Shown here: piece after piece, positions 22,163 through 54,256 of the stretch
Numbering within the stretch: the first letter of the stretch is position 1
Layout of the letters: each line of letters opens with the position of its first letter
DNA from: Xestospongia bergquistia
Lineage: Eukaryota; Porifera; Demospongiae; Haplosclerida; Petrosiidae
Assembly (NCBI GenBank): GCA_963965975.1
Contig: OZ014422.1
Span: 5,603,155 to 5,667,154 of the forward strand
Length of the DNA: 64,000 bases
Reading direction: 5' to 3'
Notes under the pieces: generated by a model
What the model was told of the DNA's origin: nothing
The model's database searches: none
What the model saw: only the letters and a program-made list of their open reading frames with translations
Program-made: the position numbers and the translations under genes

Positions 22163-25100
22163 TTACGGATAAGGTGGGTATGTCCCACCCTGAGGAGGGT
22201 AAGGAGCTTGTCCTCCTTGTGCTGGATAAGCAGGAGGTGGTTGCTGAGGATAAGATGGAGGTTCCTGTGCAAAATCAAGATATGGAGCAGGAGGTTGTTG
22301 AGGCTGGCTCGGATAAGCCACTTGCGGTTGTTGAAACTGGCTTGAATAAGGTGCCGTTGGTTGTTGAAACTGGCTTGGATAAGGTGCTGGTGGTTGTTGA
22401 GGCTGACTCGGATAAGGTGCTGGTGGTTGTTGAGGCTGACTCGGATAAGGTGCTGGAGGTTGCTGTGCCTCTTGGGAATATCGAGGTGGTATGTAACCTG
22501 TCGGGGGCTGCTGTGTGGAAGTAGGTGGAGGTTCTGTATATTCACTATAACCTGTCTCTTTAGAAACAACAGTTGTAACCACTCCTCCTGTATTTGTGGT
22601 GACATATGCTGTCCTACTAGCACTACGAGATGCTCTAGCTGCGAGTATAAAAATACAAATAGGGATCCCAACCGAAACTAAGAAAATGCAGATTGTGAAT
22701 GAAATAGTTGTTCCTACAATTATTCCAACAAGACCTGAAGAATAACAGGGATCAATTCTTATATATATATTTATATGGAATTACTAACTTGATGTGCTGG
22801 AATCACTACTATCTGTTGGTCCACTATCAGCATATCTGCAAGTTGAAGTAGTAGTACTGACTTTTGAATATGATGTAGAATATGCTATGAAGATAAAGTG
22901 AGAATTAATATGGATAGATGAATGAATGACAGATTGGATAAAGAATAGGCTGATTTTATTATTGATGGGTTGTTAATGGATCTGGATGAATGAATGTATA
23001 GTTGTTGAATAATAGTGAGTTGTATTTACTGCATTCAATTGTAATATCTTCAGAATGTCCACAGTTATCATATCGAGATGAAGGGCAAGTTGCACAATAT
23101 GCTAAACAAGAATACGAACTACTACTGCAATAAACATCATCAAGCCATATAGGCTGAGAACTATTGCCAGTACTACAGAGCAAAGAAGAGTTGACTAAAA
23201 TAGCTACTACTATTTCCTCTCCTTACATTAAGAGATGATCGTAATTATAATAATAGTTATAACCCAGTTGACGACATATTACTCTAGCATCAGTAGAACC
23301 AAATGAATCATCACAGACTGTGCCCCACTGAGAGTTGCAGTAGACTTCAACTAGACCTTGATTAGAGTAGGTGCCTCTTACAATACGTATCTGACCAGTG
23401 TAGGGACTGTTCCACAAGCGAGTTGTATCTGAACAAGAAACACAGCAATGACATGACAAGTATAATGAAAATTAAAAAATGGAAAATAAATGTAATTTAG
23501 TCATTTGCTAAATTTCTCTTTCACTTACAACAAGTCACTGAAACATCAAGATTGTCTGTACATGAACTTGAAATGATTGTACTAAATGAACACTGAAAGA
23601 TGTTTAGATAAGAGCTTGTAGAGCAGTCCAGATTATCAATAAGTGTAGGACGTTCATCTATTCCAAAGCTAAATAATAATAAAATGCAGGTCAGAATTTT
23701 GAGTATCAATGCTTGACTTTTATAGATGCACCAATATAGTATGTGTACATGTACCACTGCTAAAAGTGATGTGTCATTTTAACATATAAAATTGTTATGT
23801 GAGTTTCACATATGAGTATGACACTCGTCAGTTTTATATTAGTGATGCATAACTAAATAGGTACAGTATATGTAGAAGTTAAGTTCATTAAGTGAGTTTG
23901 TAAACATGAAGATTTAATGCTTTAAAAAAGCATTGTGTCATTCAACTGAGGCATTGATAGCTACCATAATTTCATTTATATGATGTAAGCCCAATACTGA
24001 GTTTACCACAAAGCCAAAACTAGTCTAATTCTATATGTATAAAGCCAATTTAAGCCAAAAAGTAATCTCTGTAGTTTATTGTCCTTTAATTGAAGTCGTG
24101 AGCAAGAGATGGACTACAAAGAACTCAACACAATGTATTTTAAGTGTGACTCACACTGTCATTATTAACAGTACATATATACTAACTAACCTGTCATATT
24201 GAGCTGATGTATAACTAGAATAACCAGAATATCCCAACTGATGACAGATGACATTAGCTTCATAGTAAGTAAAGTCTAAGTCATCACAGATATTACCCCA
24301 TTGTCTATTATACCAGACTTGTACTCTACCACTGGTATAGTATAGAGAAGTAAAACCATTTCTGTCAAAGCGTATAGCTCCATTTGATGAGGGTCCTTAA
24401 AATTATAAGCACAAATCAACAGTCCTTGCCATAGCTATAATATTTACCAATTGTGTCTGATATGACACCACATGATGACTCATTGTTGCTATTGCTTAAT
24501 AAAGTAGAATAAGCTAAAGTGTTAGAACAGTTATTAACCTTGACAGTTTATATAAACTACTATATATGGAATTATATGACTCCCACTTACTGCAATTGAC
24601 TACAACATCTTCACTGTGACTACAACTGGTAATAGATGTAGAAGGACAGGTTGTACAGCGAGAAAAACAATAATCTGAGCTTGAACAACTGAAAAACCTT
24701 AGAAAAATTGCACCTGTACCGCGCCTATATTATCAAATACACAATTATAATATTTCATATCATAACTTTATCCTAACTCACAGAGTCAAACCAGAGCTCC
24801 AAGTACTATTTGTATATCCAAGTTGACGACATACTACCTGTGCAGTAGTAGTTGTAAAATAGTCATCACAGACTGTTCCCCATTGTCCATTGCAATAGAC
24901 TTCTACCAGACCTTGGTTACTATAATCTCCTCCAGTAAGACGTACCATTCCAGTATAAGGAGAGTTCCAAATACGTGTGGAATCTATAGACAATACAAAG
25001 CAAGTAAGTGAATGATTGTAACATGATGTGAAACACAAAACATAAGTTAATGTATAGGAAACTATCTTTTGAAAAAATATTGAATAAGAATACTCTAAAA

Positions 25101-34661: not shown

Positions 34662-37600
34662 CTATTGAGGGGAATATGGTGCAGGAGGATAAGCACCAGG
34701 TTGTTGTGATGGATACACTTCAGGAGGATAAGCACCGGATTGCTGTGTTGGATACTCTCCAGGAAAATAAGCACCAGGTTGCTGTGGTTGGTTCATTTGA
34801 TGAGGATAGACACTAGGTTGCTGGGATTGATCCACTTGAGGAGGATGAGCACCAGGTTGTTGTGGTTGATATGATTTAGAAGGATAAGAATCAGGTTGCT
34901 GTGGTTGATATGCTTCAGAAGGATAAGTATTAGGTTCCTGTGGTTGATACACTTCATGATGATGTGTTCCTGGATACAGCGGGGGATAGTTAGCTTGTGA
35001 ATATCTTGTGGTAGCTGGATAACCTTGCAGAGGATATCCACTGGCAGGATAAGCAGCAGGAGGCTGAGAATTTGGAGGAGGTGCATCAACAGTCATTTTT
35101 GTTTCGGAAGAAGTAATGACAGTAGCAGTGGTGGTAGCAGCAGATGTACCTCTTACAACAGTAGCCCGAGGTGTACGTCTACCTTTACGACAAGCAGCAC
35201 CAATTCCTACACCCAAACAACAGCATATGCACAGAGGAATGGCAATGACAAAAACACAGATAAAGATGATGAAACCAATTGCTCCTCCCACAATAGTACT
35301 AAGATTAGTGCTACCTAATACAAATGAATAAATAGAATCATGTACAATGTTTTTGATATCTAAAAGTAATATAATTATCTGCTATGTAATGTATCTTATT
35401 ATGGGGTACCTCCTAGCTAACTATAAATATATATGTATAGTGATTACCGGATCTCTATTGTACATGTATTATTATAGAACACAATATCCTATAATATTAA
35501 ACACTATAAACTTACTTGTACTTGAAGTGGCTTTATTATATACATATATTTATATATACAGGGAAAAAAGAGATAAAAAATACACATAAGTAACTAGATA
35601 TAAAACCCCTCCTATACACTGTTCACTTTGTCCATGCATATATATTAATATTAGGACATTATATTACAATTATTACACTACAGATACTATAAACCTACTT
35701 GTATTTGGAGAATCTATATTTTATACATAGAAGAGATAAGAAAAATGCAAGTAACTGGATAGTAATACATTTCAGTTGTTCACTTTCTCCATGCACATAT
35801 GTTAATACCACAAAATAATATCACAATTATTATATTACAGATACTATAAACTTACTTGTACTTGGAGAATCTATATTTTATATATAGAAGAGATAAAACA
35901 AAACATGCAAGTAACTGGATACAAATAATCTCCTAGTTGATCATAGACAATATTTACTATATATCCTTATGCACATATATATTCACTACAAGACACTTGA
36001 ACTAATACTACTAACAGATACATAATCTCCTGATAAATGTGTCTGTCATAAGTGTCTATGGATTCAATACCTGTGATCAACAGTGATAAACAGATGTCAT
36101 TATGTTCATTTGTCTCAGTCTTGGAAGTAACCACAGTAGCAGTGGTACTGAGTGTACCTACAACAGTAGTTTGAGGTGTGGAGCGGCTACTAGAAGCTCC
36201 AATTTCCGCACCCAGACAGCAACATATACATAATGGAACTGTGATTGTAAGTATAATAACTGTGCAACAAAAGACAACTGCAGCAATTGCCACTCCCACT
36301 ATAGCACCAACTGTAAAGCTATCTAGAACAAAAGTGATAAGAAAACACTATAAATTATATATTACTTTTAATTTACTTTAGTCAAACATCAAAATAGAAT
36401 TAAAATACATGTAATCAATTATATATGTTTGATAAGAATTACTTGAGTCCATAGGGGTAGGAAGATAGTAGGGATTAGGGGGGATAAAATGTTATCAATA
36501 GTAATAACTGTTCCATGAGCAGGGGGTTGCATTCCCAGAGGTTTTTAATTTGAAAACTTGTAAAATTATGTTAAATGATAACAGATGATTATGACTGAAT
36601 TAAAGAAATGACATATATGTACATGACCTAATAAAATATGTTAATAATGTCCAAAATAGTTTACACGTCTCTTGTTGCTGGTTACAAAATCCTTTTCGAT
36701 ACTTAATAAATTAATGATTATTTTTTAAAAATAGAGTAACTTTACTTTGTTAACAATATTAGGGGGGCTAAGCCCCCCTTTAATCAACATTAGGGGGGCT
36801 AAAGCCCCCCTAGCCCCCCTGGTTCCTACCCCTATGCTTGAGTCAGCATATCGACATGTATCAAGTGTAGCATACGGGCCATTGGTATGAGAACGAGAGA
36901 ACTCTGAAAAATGCAATCATGATCACAAATTTATTAAGTATGCTACTTACCACACTCCAAAGAGATATCTTCACTATGATCACAGTTATGATATTCAAAT
37001 GATGGACAGTCCTCACAATAATAAAAACACTCATAATATCGATATGAGCATTTAGTATTATCTGACCAAATTGGTTGAGGATATGATCCATAACTAAAGT
37101 TAAGAATTTAAATTAAAGTGTTTTTGCTGTAATGATTTGTGCCATCACATCAATCAGTATTATCAATGCTGTTATGAGCAAAAGAGACCTGGATGTCAAA
37201 CAGACAGCAGGCAACTTAGGGAGCATTGTTGAAACTGTTTTAGGTTAGCTATGGGGTCAATTGGCATACATATCTGATGTATGAGTTGTATATTATTATT
37301 TAATGTGCATATAAATATAAAACATTATACCCTTATTACAATTCTCCCTCATGCGTAAACAAGCATACACTTGACTATTTGAAGAGGCATTAATAAAGAA
37401 ATAGTTTATGAGAGCTTAGGATGTAGTGTTTAAGATTTAGAGTGAACTTACTAAATTGATGTGTACTCATAACGAGAATAGTTTGAATATCCCAGTTGAC
37501 GACAGGCAACATTAGCATCAGTTGATCTAAAACTATCATCACACACTGTTCCCCACTGTCCATTACAATAGGCCTCAAGACGTCCTTGGTTGGAGTAGTT

Positions 37601-39639: not shown

Positions 39640-42600
39640 CTAATTCTGTTGCTGAGGATACCCTCCAGAAGGATAGATGGCAGACTGTTGAGGAGGATAT
39701 GTTCCTGCAGGAGGATAAGCAACAGGTTGCTGAGGTGGATATGCTTCAGGGGGATAAACAGGTTGTTGAGACGGATGTGTACCTGGTTGCTGTGGAGGAT
39801 AGGCACCAGTGGGTTCTTGAGGATATCCTGTGGCATGATAACCCTGTGGAGGATAGCCACTGGTAGGATAAGCAGGTGGAGCCTGAAAATATGGAGGAGG
39901 TGCATTAGCAGCAGAATTATCCATTTTGGTTTCAGTAGTAATAACAGCAGCAGTGGTAGTAGCAACAGGTGCACCTCTTACAACAGTAGTCCGAGATCCG
40001 CGGCTACCTTCACGACAGGCAGCACCAATTCCCACACCCAAACAACAGCATATGCACAGAGGAATGGCAATGACAAGAACACAGATAAAGATAATGAAAC
40101 CAATTACACCTCCCACAATAGCACTAAGATTAGTGCTACCTAATATAAATGAATTAATAGAATTATATACAATGTTTTTGATATCTAAAACTAATATAAG
40201 TAATTGCTATATGTAATGTATCTTATTATGGGGCATCTCCTAGCTAACTATATATATGTATAGCGATTACCAGGTCTCTTTGTGTACGTGTATCATTATA
40301 GAAAACAATATCCTATAATATTAAAAACTATAAACTTACTTGTACTTGAAGTGGCTTTATTATATACATATATTTATATATACAGGGAAAAAGAGATAAA
40401 AAAAATACACATAAGTAACTAGATATGAACACCTCTGTTCACCTTGTTCATGCATATATATTAATATTAGAAAATAATATCACAATTACATTACAGATAC
40501 TATAAACTTACTTGTACTTGGAGAATCTATATTTTATATATAGAAAAGATAAGAAAAAACATGCAAGTAACTGGATAGTAACACATTTCTGTTGTTCACT
40601 TTGTCCATGCACGTATGTTAACACCACAAAATAATATCACAATTATTACCTTACAGATACTATAAACTTACTTGTACTTGGAGAATCTATATTTTATATA
40701 TAGAAGAGATAAGAAAAAACATGCAAGTAACTGGATAGTAACACATTTCTGTTGTTCACTTTGTCCATGCACGTATGTTAACACCACAAAATAATATCAC
40801 AATTATTACATTACAGATACTATAAACTTACTTGTACTTGGAGTAGCTATATTTTATATATAGAAGAGATAAGAAAAAACATGCAAGTAACTGGATATGA
40901 ATCTCCTAGTTGATTACAGGCAGTGTTTACTATGTCTATGCACATATATTTATACCACAAAATAACATCATAGCTCTTACATCTACATGTACTTGGAGTA
41001 GCTATATTATATATAGAAAAGAAAGAGTAATTAACTAGATACAAAACACCTTCTAGCTGTTCACTGTGTCCATGAACATACGACAATACCACAAAATAAT
41101 ATCATAACTCTTATATCTATAAATTTACATGTACTTGGAGTAGTTATATATTATGTATAGGAAGAAGACAACAGAAAATCAAGTAACCGGATAGTAACTC
41201 TTTTTAATTGTTCATTTTGTCCATGCACATATATTAATATCACAAAATAATATCACAATTATTACATTACAGATACTATAAACTCACATGTACTTGGAGT
41301 AGCTATATGTTGTATAGGAAAAAGAGAAAAATAAAGTATAATATTAATTGTATTCAATTATAGTTCCAGTTATGATGCATAAATGATATGTGCATCATCT
41401 TAATTCCTTTAGAACTAGTTCAATTGTTTTTGTTTATATTATGTATATCCTCTAACTTACATCAAACATCAAAATAGAATTAAAATACATGTAATCAATT
41501 ATATGTGTTTGATAAGAAATTACTTGAGTCAGCATATTGACAAGTAGCAAGTGTAGCATATGGTCCACTGGTACGAGAATAGGAGAACTCTGTAAAAAAT
41601 ATAATCATGATCATATATTGACTAACTATGCTACTTACCACACTCCAAAGAGACATCTTCACTATGATCACAGTTATGATATTGAGATGATGGACAACTC
41701 TCACAATAAGCAAGGCAACTAGTAGATGAACTTGAGCATCGAACATTGTCCAACCAAATTGGCTGAGAAATGGATCCATCACTAAAGATAAACAAAAGAA
41801 ATTAAATTGTTTTGCTGCACATGAATGTTCTAATTTCTGATTACATCCATCAATGCTTAAGATTGGATTACTATCATTGCTATTATGTATAAAAATAAAT
41901 TGACAGTTATGGAATAGTGATAAGTTTTTTATTAAGTTCATACCAAAACTATCTTATCTTTAAGGAAGCCCAGTGAAACAGTCTGAACTTTGGACCTAAA
42001 CCATTAGGACAGTCCAGACACATACTTCAACACTTAATCTTTAGGGTTTTAGATTAGGATTTATGATGAACTTACTAAATTGATGTGTACTCATAACGAG
42101 AATAGTCTGAATATCCCAGTTGACGACAGGCAACATTAGCATCAGTTGAATCAAAACTATCATCGCACACTGTTCCCCACTGTCCATTACAATAGACCTC
42201 AAGACGTCCACGATTGGAGTAGTCTCCACCCACAATACGAAGTTGTCCTGAATAAGGATTACTACTCCAGATCTTAGTGGTATCTAAATAATGATCACAT
42301 AATACAATATTATATAGTACAAAACTTACAACAAACAACAAAAGCATCACGACTATGATCATTACAATAAGAGGAGTATCGAGAGCTGTAACTACACTGT
42401 AGTAGAACCAGGTAACTACTGGATGAACAGTCAACATCTTCTAGTAACATGGAGTTAGTGTCTGTTCCATAACTATAAAAATATAAAATGTTATAGTTTA
42501 AAAAATTTGTATTTAATTTGCATTGATTATTAAATAAATAATAATAAATTTCATTTTAGACAATTTAGAAGGTAATTTAATTAACTAGTTAACTCACAGT

Positions 42601-44526: not shown

Positions 44527-47500
44527 CTATTGAGGGGGATATGGTGCAGGAGGATAAGCACCAGGTTGTTGTGATGGATACACTTCAGGAGGATAAGCAA
44601 CGGATTGCTGTGTTGGATACTCTCCAGGAAAATAAGCACCAGGTTGCTGCGGTTGGTTCATTTGAGGAGGATAGACACTAGGTTGCTGGGATTGATCCAC
44701 TTGAGGAGGATAAGCACCAGGTTGTTGTGGTCGATATGACTTAGAAGGATAAAAATCAGGTTGCTGTGGTTGGTTCATTTGAGGAGGATAGACACTAGGT
44801 TGCTGGGATTGATCCACTTGAGGAGGATAAGCACCAGGTTGTTGTGGTTGATATGATTTAGAAGGATAAGAATCAGGTTGCTGTGGTTGATATGCTTCAG
44901 GAGGATAAGTATTAGGTTCCTGTGGTTGATACACTTCATGATGATGTGTTCCTGGATACAGTGGGGGATAGTTAGCTTGTGAATATCTTGTGGCAGCAGG
45001 ATAACCTTGCAGAGGATATCCACTGGCAGGATAAGCAACAGGAGGCTGAGAATTTGGAGGAGGTGCATCAACAGTCATTTTTGTTTCAGTAGAAGTAATG
45101 ACAGTAGCAGTGGTGGTAGCAGCAGATGTGCCTCTTACAACAGCAGCCCGAGGTGTACGTCTACCTTTACGACAAGCAGCACCAATTCCTACACCCAAAC
45201 AACAGCATATGCACAGAGGAATGGCAATGATAAGAACACAGATAAAGATGATGAAACCAGTTACTCCTCCCACAATAGCACTAAGATTAATGCTACCTAA
45301 TATAAATGAATAAATAGAATCATGTACAATGTTTTTGATATCTAAAAGTAATATAATTATCTGCTATGTAATGTATCTTATATGGGGTACCTCCTAGCTA
45401 GCTATACATATATATGTATAGTGATTACCGGATCTCTATGTATAAATTGTACATGTATTATTATAGAACACAATATCCTATAATATTAAACACTATAAAC
45501 TTACTTGTACTTGAAGTGGCTTTATTATATACATATATTTATATATACAGGGAAAAAGAGATAAAAAAAATACACATAAGTAACTAGATATGAACACCTC
45601 TGTTCACCTTGTTCATGCATATATATTAATATTAGAAAATAATATCACAATTACATTACAGATACTATAAACTTACTTGTACTTGGAGAATCTATATTTT
45701 ATATATAGAAAAGATAAGAAAAAACATGCAAGTAACTGGATAGTAACACATTTCTGTTGTTCACTTTGTCCATGCACGTATGTTAACACCACAAAATAAT
45801 ATCACAATTATTACCTTACAGATACTATAAACTTACTTGTACTTGGAGAATCTATATTTTATATATAGAAGAGATAAGAAAAAACATGCAAGTAACTGGA
45901 TAGTAACACATTTCTGTTGTTCACTTTGTCCATGCACGTATGTTAACACCACAAAATAATATCACAATTATTATATTACAGATACTATAAACTTACTTGT
46001 ACTTGGAGAATCTATATTTTATATATAGAAGAGATAAGAAAAAACATGCAAGTAACTAGATAGTAACGCATTTCTGTTGTTCCCTTTGTCCATGCACGTA
46101 TGTTAACACCACAAAATAATATCACAATTATTACCTTACAGATACTATAAACTTACTTGTACTTGGAGTAGCTATATATTATATATATAGAAGAGATAAG
46201 AAAAAACATGCAAGTAACTGGATAGTAACACATTTCTGTTGTTCACTTTGTCCATGCACGTATGTTAACACCACAAAATAATATCACAATTATTATATTA
46301 CAGATACTATAAACTTACTTGTACTTGGAGAATCTATATTTTATATATAGAAAAGATAAGAAAAAACATGCAAGTAACTGGATAGTAACACATTTCTGTT
46401 GTTCACTTTGTCCATGCACGTATGTTAACACCACAAAATAATATCACAATTATTACATTACAGATACTATAAACTTACTTGTACTTGGAGTAGCTATATT
46501 TTATATATAGAAGAGATAAGAAAAAACATGCAAGTAACTGGATAGTAACACATTTCTGTTGTTCACTTTGTCCATGCACGTATGTTAACACCACAAAATA
46601 ATATCACAATTATTACCTTACAGATACTATAAACTTACTTGTACTTGGAGAATCTATATTTTATATATAGAAGAGATAAGAAAAAACATGCAAGTAACTG
46701 GATAGTAACACATTTCTGTTGTTCACTTTGTCCATGCACGTATGTTAACACCACAAAATAATATCACAATTATTACATTACAGATACTATAAACTTACTT
46801 GTACTTGGAGTAGCTATATTTTATATATAGAAGAGATAAGAAAAAACATGCAAGTAACTGGATATGAATCTCCTAGTTGATTACAGGCAGTGTTTACTAT
46901 GTCTATGCACATATATTTATACCACAAAATAACATCATAGCTCTTACATCTACATGTACTTGGAGTAGCTATATTATATATAGAAAAGAAAGAGTAATTA
47001 ACTAGATACAAAACACCTTCTAGCTGTTCACTGTGTCCATGAACATACAACAATACCACAAAATAATATCATAACTGTTATATCTATAAATTTACATGTA
47101 CTTGGAGTAGTTATATATTATGTATAGGAAGAAGACAACAGAAAATCAAGTAACCGGATAGTAACTCTTTTTAATTGTTCATTTTGTCCATGCACATATA
47201 TTAATATCACAAAATAATATCACAATTATTACATTACAGATACTATAAACTCACATGTACTTGGAGTAGCTATATATTGTATAGGAAAAAGAGAAAAATA
47301 AAGTATAATATTAATTGTACTCTATTATATTTTTGTTATGATGTATAAACGATATGTGCATCGTCTTAATTCCTTTTAAACCAGTTTAATTGTTTTTATT
47401 TATATTATATATATCTTCTAGCTTACTTCCTTGATTACAAGTATTAATTGTAGTATATGGACCACTAGTACGAGAGAGAGAAAACTCTATGGACAAGAGA

Positions 47501-49566
47501 CAAATATAATATGACCATATTATTTGACCATTTTACTTACTACACTCCAAAGAGACATCCTTACTATGATCACAGTTATGATACTGAGATGATGGACATC
47601 TCTCACAATTAGCAAGACAAATAGTAGATGAACTGGTACATCTAACATTGTCCAACCAAATTGGCTGAGTACTGGAGCCATCACTAAAAAAAACCTCTCA
47701 TATAAACATAAACAATGTCCAGAACCAACAAAACATAATAAACTGATACAATTGATCAATTCAATATATTGAACAATTATATAATTTTATTTTAAACATA
47801 GCAATCTAGTAACATTATTATAAACTCATGAAACTTACTAAATTGATGTGTACTCATAACGAGAATATCCTGAATATCCCAGTTGACGACAGGCAACATT
47901 AGCATCAGTTGAACCAAAACTATCATCACACACTGTTCCCCACTGTCCATTACAATAGACCTCAAGACGTCCTTGGTTAGAGTACATCCCTCCCACAATG
48001 CGAAGCTGTCCTGTATAGGGATTGCTGTTCCAGATCTTAGTGGTATCTAATGACATAAGTATTAACATAACAATATACTGCATGGTATAAATAACATGTA
48101 CTTACAGCAAACAACGAAAGCATCACGAGTATTATCATTACAATATGAGGAAATTATAGTGCTATAACTACACTGTAGGAGAACCAGGTAACTACTGGAT
48201 GAACAGTCAACATCTTCTAGTAACATGGAGCTAGAATCTGTTCCATAACTATATTACAAATACTCAAATAAATATCTTGCTTGTTGAAATGAAGTTTTTC
48301 ACATTAATTTTATACACATTGTTGGTACAGATATAGTTTTGTCTAAATATAGGTTAATTGTATATAATAGCTTTTAAGGGAGTCATGTTATATAGTATTT
48401 GTTAAGTGCATTTGTTGTTATGTTTAGAATTATACTTATGTTTTCCAGGCCTTAGATATTTCTCTGGTATTTATTATTGTTGTCTATAGGGTGCAAACCA
48501 TATAGAAAAATGTTAACAATGACAAATTAGAATGTTTGTATAACAGTAATATGTATTCTGTAACTTGATAGAGTGCTCTGTACATTAGTATAGATAACAT
48601 GATCTGATCTGTGATGTAAACAATTTATGTAGTTCTCTAGAATATATAGATGTTTTTACAATGTAAAAACTCATGAAAATTAAAGCAATGACAATGTTGT
48701 AATAGATTGGTTGTTTTAACTAATTGATAGTGACTTGGGTTGCATATGTACCTACAAAGCATATCAATCATTGGAAGACATCAACAACACCTGCTGTTAT
48801 GACTATTAATTACTATGGAATCAAGAGTTCATATGGTACAACGCTTTGACTTTTCAGAAAGGGTATGCATTTGGTCAGAAAAATTAATTCCATAGTGATG
48901 GTCATCCATGATAATAATATTTTATAGCTAATGACATATAATCTCATAGTTCAGACAATAATTAAATTTTAGTACATGAATTGTTAATTAGTATATTAAT
49001 AATAAAAACTACTTGGTGTTTATTAATATCTCATTAATAATAAAAATTGTTTGGTGTTTACTAACATCTCATTATGTATTATATATAACCCAAATAACTA
49101 TATATTAGTTAAAATTCATTTTTTATTCTTAGTATAATCTAGAATGAAATTTTTCTTATGAATATAAAATATTCTTACAGTGTTGTACTTCCAGCATTAC
49201 CATAAGTGGAGACACCAGTAAAGGCCAATTGATGACATATCACATTAGCTTCACTGTAACCGAAAAGAGCGTCATCACAGATGTTACCCCAAGACTTGAA
49301 CCAAAGAAAGTTACCATAGTAGATCTCCACAATACCAGAGGTATAAGCTTGTGTTGTAGAGTAAACACCATTTCTCATGAGTCGAATTGCTCCATTACCT
49401 AAATACAAAAGATATCACCTTAGACTGGTTATCATTGCTTATATGTAAGTCAGTTACCACTTCACAACACTGTAATGATCATCAATAAAGTATTTAATTA
49501 CTTACCTTGTCCGTTAATATTTGAAATGAGACCAAGAATACTAACTAAGATTACAATAAAACCCAT
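44527..49566 (-). CDS. Two-SRCR receptor with longest microexon stalk and PQ-rich tail (gene M)
   Basis: Exons: 49506-49566, 49179-49398, 48106-48248, 47839-48046, 47541-47683, 47427-47486, up to 11 microexons, 44527-45296. Signal peptide [24 protein letters not shown]1's first exon has a five-residue insertion ([15 protein letters not shown]) in the loop before WGNIC; SRCR2 has [32 protein letters not shown] and [12 protein letters not shown]. Stalk, TM ([20 protein letters not shown]), [17 protein letters not shown] and a tail of about 215 residues of QPQQPxxYPPQ repeats follow. Length is 534 aa without microexons and 589 with 11. Relative to the near-identical tail of the gene at 34662, a 39-residue block is tandemly duplicated. 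A 930-bp intron (48249-49178) separates the halves of SRCR1; its sequence is copied again at 54257-55180. Confidence 0.8.
45505..47269 (-). repeat. Microexon array, 12 copies (gene M)
   Basis: Fifteen-nt candidate exons at 47255-47269, 47096-47110 (acceptor lost), 46954-46968, 46799-46813, 46639-46653, 46479-46493, 46319-46333, 46157-46171, 45997-46011, 45837-45851, 45677-45691 and 45505-45519. Period is 160 bp in most steps. Central units are almost identical, so expansion is recent. Donors are mainly ACAA/GTAAGT; acceptors read ATATAG after a TCTTATCTCTTCT-like pyrimidine tract. Translated in order, all residues are Ser, Thr, Pro or Asn (TTPST, STPST, NSPST, TTSST). Confidence 0.68.
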
Positions 49567-53846: not shown

Positions 53847-54256
53847 TAAATTGATGTGTACTCATAATGAGAATAATCTGAATATCCTAGTTGACGACAG
53901 GCAACATTAGCATCAGTTGAACCAAAACTATCATCACACACTGTTCCCCACTGTCCATTACAATAGACATCAAGATGTCCTTGGTTAGAGTATGTCCCTC
54001 CCACAATACGAAGCTGTCCTGTATAGGGATTGCTATTCCAGATCTTAGTGGTATCTAGTGACATAAGTATTAACATAACAATATACTGTATGGTATAAAT
54101 AACATGTACTTACAGCAAACAACAAAAGCATCATGAGTATTATCATTACAATATGAGGAAATTATAGTGCTATAACTACACTGTAGGAGAACCAGGTAAC
54201 TACTGGATGAACAGTCAATATCTTCTAGTAACATGGAGCTAGAATCTGTTCCATAA
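53847..54256 (-). pseudogene. Orphan pair of SRCR exons
   Basis: Exons at 54114-54256 (second half of SRCR1) and 53847-54054 (first half of SRCR2: [40 protein letters not shown]). Both are open with good splice sites and nearly identical to 48106-48248 and 47839-48046. No signal exon, SRCR1 first exon, SRCR2 second exon or TM exon accompanies them: the duplicated block (about 53770-55180, copied from 47755-49060) simply ends. It could act only if spliced into a neighbouring transcript. Confidence 0.75.

Follow-up and report, generated by a model that had tools for sequence, protein, structure and literature searches.

Five tandem arrays of a short unit in the sponge Xestospongia bergquistia form a gene-by-gene copy-number ladder, with 12 units in the array of gene M, 7 in L, 5 in A, 3 in K, and 2 in B. 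The window analyzed here, a stretch of 64,000 nt, is part of contig C12 and contains gene M, whose units each carry a 15-nt segment between splice-like signals. Interpretation of these segments as microexons is likely. We consider it probable, judging from the DNA sequence, that they are real exons of the stalk of an immune-type SRCR receptor and that their genomic copy number sets the length of the stalk gene by gene.

Gene M and its stalk array

Gene M lies on the minus strand and has seven ordinary exons spanning 49566 to 44527 of the window, with phases of 1, 2, 1, 2, 1, and 1 after exons 1 to 6. Exon 1 (49506–49566), which has an open model and a GTAAGT donor, provides the start codon and an N terminus that resembles, and presumably is, a signal peptide. 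The first SRCR domain is divided between exon 2 (49179–49398) and exon 3 (48106–48248), and the second between exon 4 (47839–48046) and exon 5 (47541–47683). Exon 6 (E6, 47427–47486) is the stalk exon and ends in phase 1 at 47427; exon 7 (E7, 44527–45296) starts in phase 1 at 45296 and encodes a TM-like segment and a Pro/Gln/Tyr-rich cytoplasmic tail. The Pfam profile PF00530 (SRCR) matches the protein in two stretches, above the cut-off (E = 1.1e-36). A Pfam match to EVI2A over the stalk and TM segment, at 20.3 bits against a cut-off of 25, was set aside. The Pro/Gln/Tyr-rich tails hold tandem repeats of their own (39/117 bp and 33 bp) at 44547–44945, 34682–34963, and 22279–22462, and the copy numbers of these tail repeats differ among the paralogs. 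Upstream of gene M, at 53847–54256, there is a pair of exons that are 98% and 95% identical to exons 3 and 4 of gene M, apparently a partial duplicate.

Between E6 and E7, from 47269 to 45505, there are 12 units of ~160 bp, each with a 15-nt core segment, and TRF describes the array as 10.7 copies with a period of 160 (45601–47283). The core segments are bounded by ATATAG-type and GTAAGT-type signals, and 12 of 12 are 15 nt long and in phase 1-1; the pentamers encoded are TTPST, STPST, NSPST, and TTSST. A first-pass annotation had claimed 12 such segments between these two exons, and the sequence, TRF, and phase bear this out. The first unit on the coding strand, m1 (47255–47269), reads CTACTCCAAGTACAT and has the donor GTGAGT. 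Both sites are present in m4 (46799–46813), m5 (46639–46653), m6 (46479–46493), m7 (46319–46333), m8 (46157–46171), m9 (45997–46011), m10 (45837–45851), and m11 (45677–45691). The same annotation held that one copy has lost its acceptor and that the rest keep both sites. The former is true of m2 (47096–47110), which has ATATAA in place of an acceptor, but the remainder of the statement is too generous: the donor of m2 is GTAAAT, m3 (46954–46968) has kept its acceptor and has a poor donor, GTAGAT, and the old, diverged unit m12 (45505–45519; CCACTTCAAGTACAA), with donor GTAAGT, has AATAAAG as its acceptor. Altogether, AG is present in 11 of the 12 units and GT in all 12, and 10 units combine an AG with a GTAAGT or GTGAGT donor.

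The gene M model is free of internal stops with none of the units or with all 12, in which case the microexons would supply 60 of 594 residues. The gene structure, phase, Ser/Thr/Pro/Asn composition, and position in the stalk of an SRCR receptor that had been proposed at the outset are supported. The introns between units measure 127–157 nt, the two that flank the array 157 and 208 nt, and the remaining ones in gene M 54, 59, 107, 155, and 930 nt. In m4 to m11 (8 of the 12 units), one in-frame stop lies 10 nt upstream of the segment and another 8 codons downstream. Given these flanking stops, exons longer than 15 nt are unlikely for m4 to m11; the exclusion is less strict for m1 and m3, whose upstream in-frame stops are 55 and 103 nt away, respectively. 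Reading through past the exon leads to a stop after 8 codons in 9 of the 12 units, after 22 in m2 and after 14 in m12, and to none within 40 in m3.

Units m4 to m10 are 92–100% identical to one another and m11 is 84–89% identical to them, whereas m1, m2, m3, and m12 are just 56–78% like any other unit. The middle of the gene M array appears to have been amplified recently and its ends to be old, the pattern expected from unequal exchange. The exons of the four diverged units depart from CTACTCCAAGTACAA at only 1 or 2 of 15 positions.

Paralogous arrays

A 30-nt microexon signature, searched with up to 3 mismatches, has 27 matches in the 146-Mb assembly, counts of this kind being lower bounds, and 27 of 27 fall in the five arrays, within ~51 kb of C12. 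The backward control of this signature had no genome match. A shorter, 22-nt pattern has 52 genome matches, of which 29 lie in the arrays and the other 23 outside them (one with 2 mismatches, 22 with 3); its backward control has two. A transposon or satellite was rejected as the source of the units, because the 30-nt signature is confined to the five arrays and the whole array matches just five places.

The seven units of gene L (40340–41302, minus strand) lie between its E6 (41589–41524) and E7 (40139–39640), and the three units of array K (35516–35870, minus strand) stand before a TM exon at 35314–34662. Complete models were obtained for paralogs A, B, M, and L, and each is open with none and with all of its units; the form with all units is notional for B, whose first unit (B1) has lost its donor and has no GT. 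In gene L, the acceptor of L2 is lost and the donor of L3 is poor. Gene J, upstream of array K, has a TM exon of its own that starts at 36322. In the region 34662–36347, array K and its TM exon occur just downstream of this different TM exon, and exons 1–5 of J join K in frame; J might use either of two membrane and tail exons as alternatives, or else K could be an orphan 3' end.

A tandem array of exon ends is found at L009:4983–5629, where a 46-bp unit holding the 3' end of a copy of SRCR exon 2 and a GTAAGG donor is repeated 14.1 times at 98%. The protein piece encoded by exons 5–6 matches at least 151 places in the genome, many of them on C12 and C3 (150 of 721 candidates scored), and, as far as these matches indicate, this is a large SRCR expansion.

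Sequence constraint and splice signals

The five arrays provide 29 units, which amount to 24 different sequences when the aligned columns are compared. Among these distinct units, no other 27-nt window of the 144 compared is as well conserved as ATATAG plus exon plus GTAAGT, whose mean pairwise difference is 0.12, the median being 0.28. Taken without its signals, the 15-nt exon comes 19th among 156 windows of its length; its first three bases vary, and the donor side is highly constant. Nine old units, hand-picked from the 29 for their divergence, give 36 pairs, in which substitutions affect 50 of 540 exon sites (0.093) as against 717 of 1769 upstream (0.405) and 458 of 1915 downstream (0.239). 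Indels are found in the exon in 0 of the 36 pairs, and in the neighboring sequence in 25 pairs upstream and 23 downstream. The exact exon-plus-sites window ranks 6 of 144 in these nine units with gaps counted, or 12 with substitutions only, and all windows that outrank it overlap it. Changes within the exon showed no preference for silent positions, and their retention of Ser/Thr/Pro/Asn (7 of 8) was not significant (p = 0.08).

True splice sites for scoring were drawn from related genes of one cluster. Across all 29 units, 21 donors score 8.8–8.9 and the other 8 range from 7.7 to −2.6; a score of 8.8–8.9 corresponds to the 25th percentile of 32 distinct true donors and is reached by <2% of GTs. 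The microexon acceptors, 27 after the two units without AG are set aside, are weak; their median score corresponds to the 11th percentile for the 65 true acceptors and is equaled or exceeded by 32% of the 5791 AGs. An earlier acceptor matrix, biased against microexons by its inclusion of exon bases and related sites, had placed almost all of them below the true range. They stayed weak when the matrix was weighted by exon type and each true exon type was scored with a matrix that left that type out. Upstream of 93% of the 27 microexon acceptors, 40 nt or more are free of AG, compared with 42% of the 65 true acceptors and 10% of the 5791 AGs.

When acceptor, donor, phase, and Ser/Thr/Pro content were scanned for jointly over 104 kb of coding strand, 23 matches resulted, 23 of 23 inside the arrays; these are copies of one another and hence are not independent events. 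The plus strand gave one match and two reversed sequences gave none and one. Chance occurrence of the signals is rejected on the joint scan and these three controls.

A second SRCR cluster and relatives in Amphimedon

A TM exon of the gene M type occurs in seven places in a second cluster, on contig C3. Three of the seven loci have an 18-nt phase-1 Thr/Pro microexon candidate, YAATTCCAACTASTACAC, at the corresponding position in the stalk, with donor GTAAGT; 16 of its 18 positions are identical in all three loci, and it is unrelated to the 15-nt unit. No further genome match to YAATTCCAACTASTACAC was found at up to 3 mismatches, and the joint scan was empty in the other four C3 loci and in six TM loci of C12 (L045, L049, and L054–L057), over ~1.5 kb each. 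Another 18-nt candidate, common to four C3 loci and in one of them with a GC donor, was found by eye and failed the joint scan. In one gene of the C3 cluster (L053 and L067), the TM exon is preceded by two 18-nt microexon candidates and by a Ser/Thr-rich exon that itself contains 18-nt repeats. Judging from both clusters, this SRCR family seems to be in the habit of putting small Ser/Thr/Pro exons into its stalks.

The protein of gene M is closest to SRCR proteins of Amphimedon queenslandica, the best match sharing 63% identity across 44% of the query (among the best 120 of 171 matches). Several of these proteins have the same architecture of SRCR–SRCR–TM–proline tail, and the hydrophobic TM-like stretch of gene M E7 is also present in A. 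queenslandica paralogs. The pattern of the E6–E7 join was recognized in 10 of the best 120 proteins, 9 with a short linker and 1 (P0040) with a long Ser/Thr-rich stretch; P0038 has a Thr-rich stretch and falls outside this pattern. Two protein searches, covering predicted proteins only so that an absence carries little weight, returned no near-identical protein of the same species. One of the two yielded eight exon-like metagenome proteins.

Discussion

The exon and its sites have been conserved in units with diverged flanks, and an unrelated microexon occupies the equivalent place in the C3 cluster. Both features argue against the explanation that the array is a decoy, its splice-like signals the legacy of a single ancestral microexon that is no longer spliced in, so that E6 joins E7 directly. 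We regard this explanation as unlikely. It would account for the weak acceptors, for the lost acceptors of m2 and L2, the lost donor of B1, and the poor donors of m3 and L3; the direct E6–E7 join is also in frame, and a short linker is what 9 of the 10 A. queenslandica proteins with this join have, among the best 120 proteins. It is far less credible, and indeed very improbable, that the signals are there as stepping stones by which the intron is removed, or to provide stops upon intron retention, where an early stop past the donor would result in a soluble receptor. The stop met 8 codons past the exon in 9 of 12 units is compatible with retention but is expected of any intron, and either version leaves the conservation of the 15 nt themselves unexplained.

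The manner in which the units are used is a separate matter. Splicing might pick how many of the 12 units enter each mRNA and thereby generate many stalk lengths according to cell or condition, a possibility that we entertain only tentatively. Any subset of units would stay in frame, each being 15 nt and in phase 1-1, and mostly good donors accompany weak acceptors. Optional exons usually have this combination of good donors and weak acceptors. However, the unit introns of 127–157 nt, with 157 and 208 nt at the edges, are near the gene's other introns in size, and short-intron splicing would include all intact units. Given such short introns, intron definition that includes most units is at least as probable as a regulated choice among them; the weak acceptors point in the opposite direction.

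In the reading we prefer, that of real stalk microexons counted by the genome, tandemly duplicated symmetric phase 1-1 microexons would each contribute a Ser/Thr/Pro block of five residues to a mucin-like stalk of the receptor. The unit identities suggest that unequal exchange of ~160-bp units grows and shrinks the array. Each paralog would have its own maximum stalk contribution with all units used, 60 residues for M, 35 for L, 25 for A, 15 for K, and 10 for B, and fewer where sites have been lost. Most intact units would probably be joined into the mRNA through intron definition; more speculatively, the weak acceptors may let splicing pass over some units, so that a single gene would yield stalks of several lengths. 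The composition of the pentamers suggests that they are O-glycosylated and stiff, in which case copy number would set reach, a longer stalk holding the SRCR domains further off the membrane. A broader proposal is that the stalk is a fast-evolving ruler encoded in the genome, in which five-residue mucin microexons are gained and lost by unequal crossing-over and weak acceptors read a variable number of them, so that evolution and splicing together set reach, with microexons of unrelated sequence filling this place in the stalk in two or more clusters of the family. This wider version is doubtful.

The closest designs appear to be the schistosome micro-exon genes (MEGs), above all the composite VAL-6, and the human IgG3 hinge exons. 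The available part of one account describes MEGs as having very small symmetric exons that keep the frame under any splice choice, reports their differential splicing, and presents VAL-6 as a MEG-like portion within an otherwise different gene (PMC4350168). The small exons of gene M are likewise symmetric in phase (12 of 12). In contrast to MEGs, in which most of the coding region consists of microexons, the sponge genes carry a single microexon unit in near-identical tandem copies, and only in the stalk. Most of the coding region of gene M is ordinary, and by definition it is not a MEG. In human IgG3 the number of hinge exons differs between alleles (4, 3, or 2), and hinge length alters function, as stated in the portions available of two sources (PMC3457951, PMC7218058). 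There, as in the sponge, a linker exon has been duplicated in tandem in the same phase and copy number varies, a likeness of mechanism and not of kinship. The sponge exons are only 15 nt long, whereas IgG3 hinge exons are ~45–51 nt, and there are up to 12 units in an unrelated receptor instead of 2–4, with variation between genes of one assembly. Mutually exclusive exons also arise by tandem exon duplication, according to the text available (PMC9741552), but they substitute for one another and add no length. The sponge units would be additive, and they are nearly identical, so that mutual substitution would be pointless.

The accessible text on the A. queenslandica SRCR superfamily describes tandem gene clusters, a seven-exon structure in one gene pair, and three exons per SRCR domain (PMC10855680). 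Gene M resembles the genes of that text in its tandem clustering and its seven ordinary exons and differs from them in having each SRCR domain mainly in two exons. The words "stalk" and "mucin" are absent from the main text of that paper. In the literature searched, which leaves out most subscription journals, there is no description of tandem stalk microexons in sponge SRCR genes.

The reach of a receptor decides which surfaces it can touch. If the preferred reading is true, stalk length in these receptors would evolve in five-residue steps that leave the binding domains and the reading frame untouched. It would extend a MEG-type gene design beyond flatworms, and an early animal lineage would have hinge variation of the IgG3 kind. 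Tandem 15-nt exons would be expected to escape standard gene finders and aligners, and such stalks may hide in other SRCR families.
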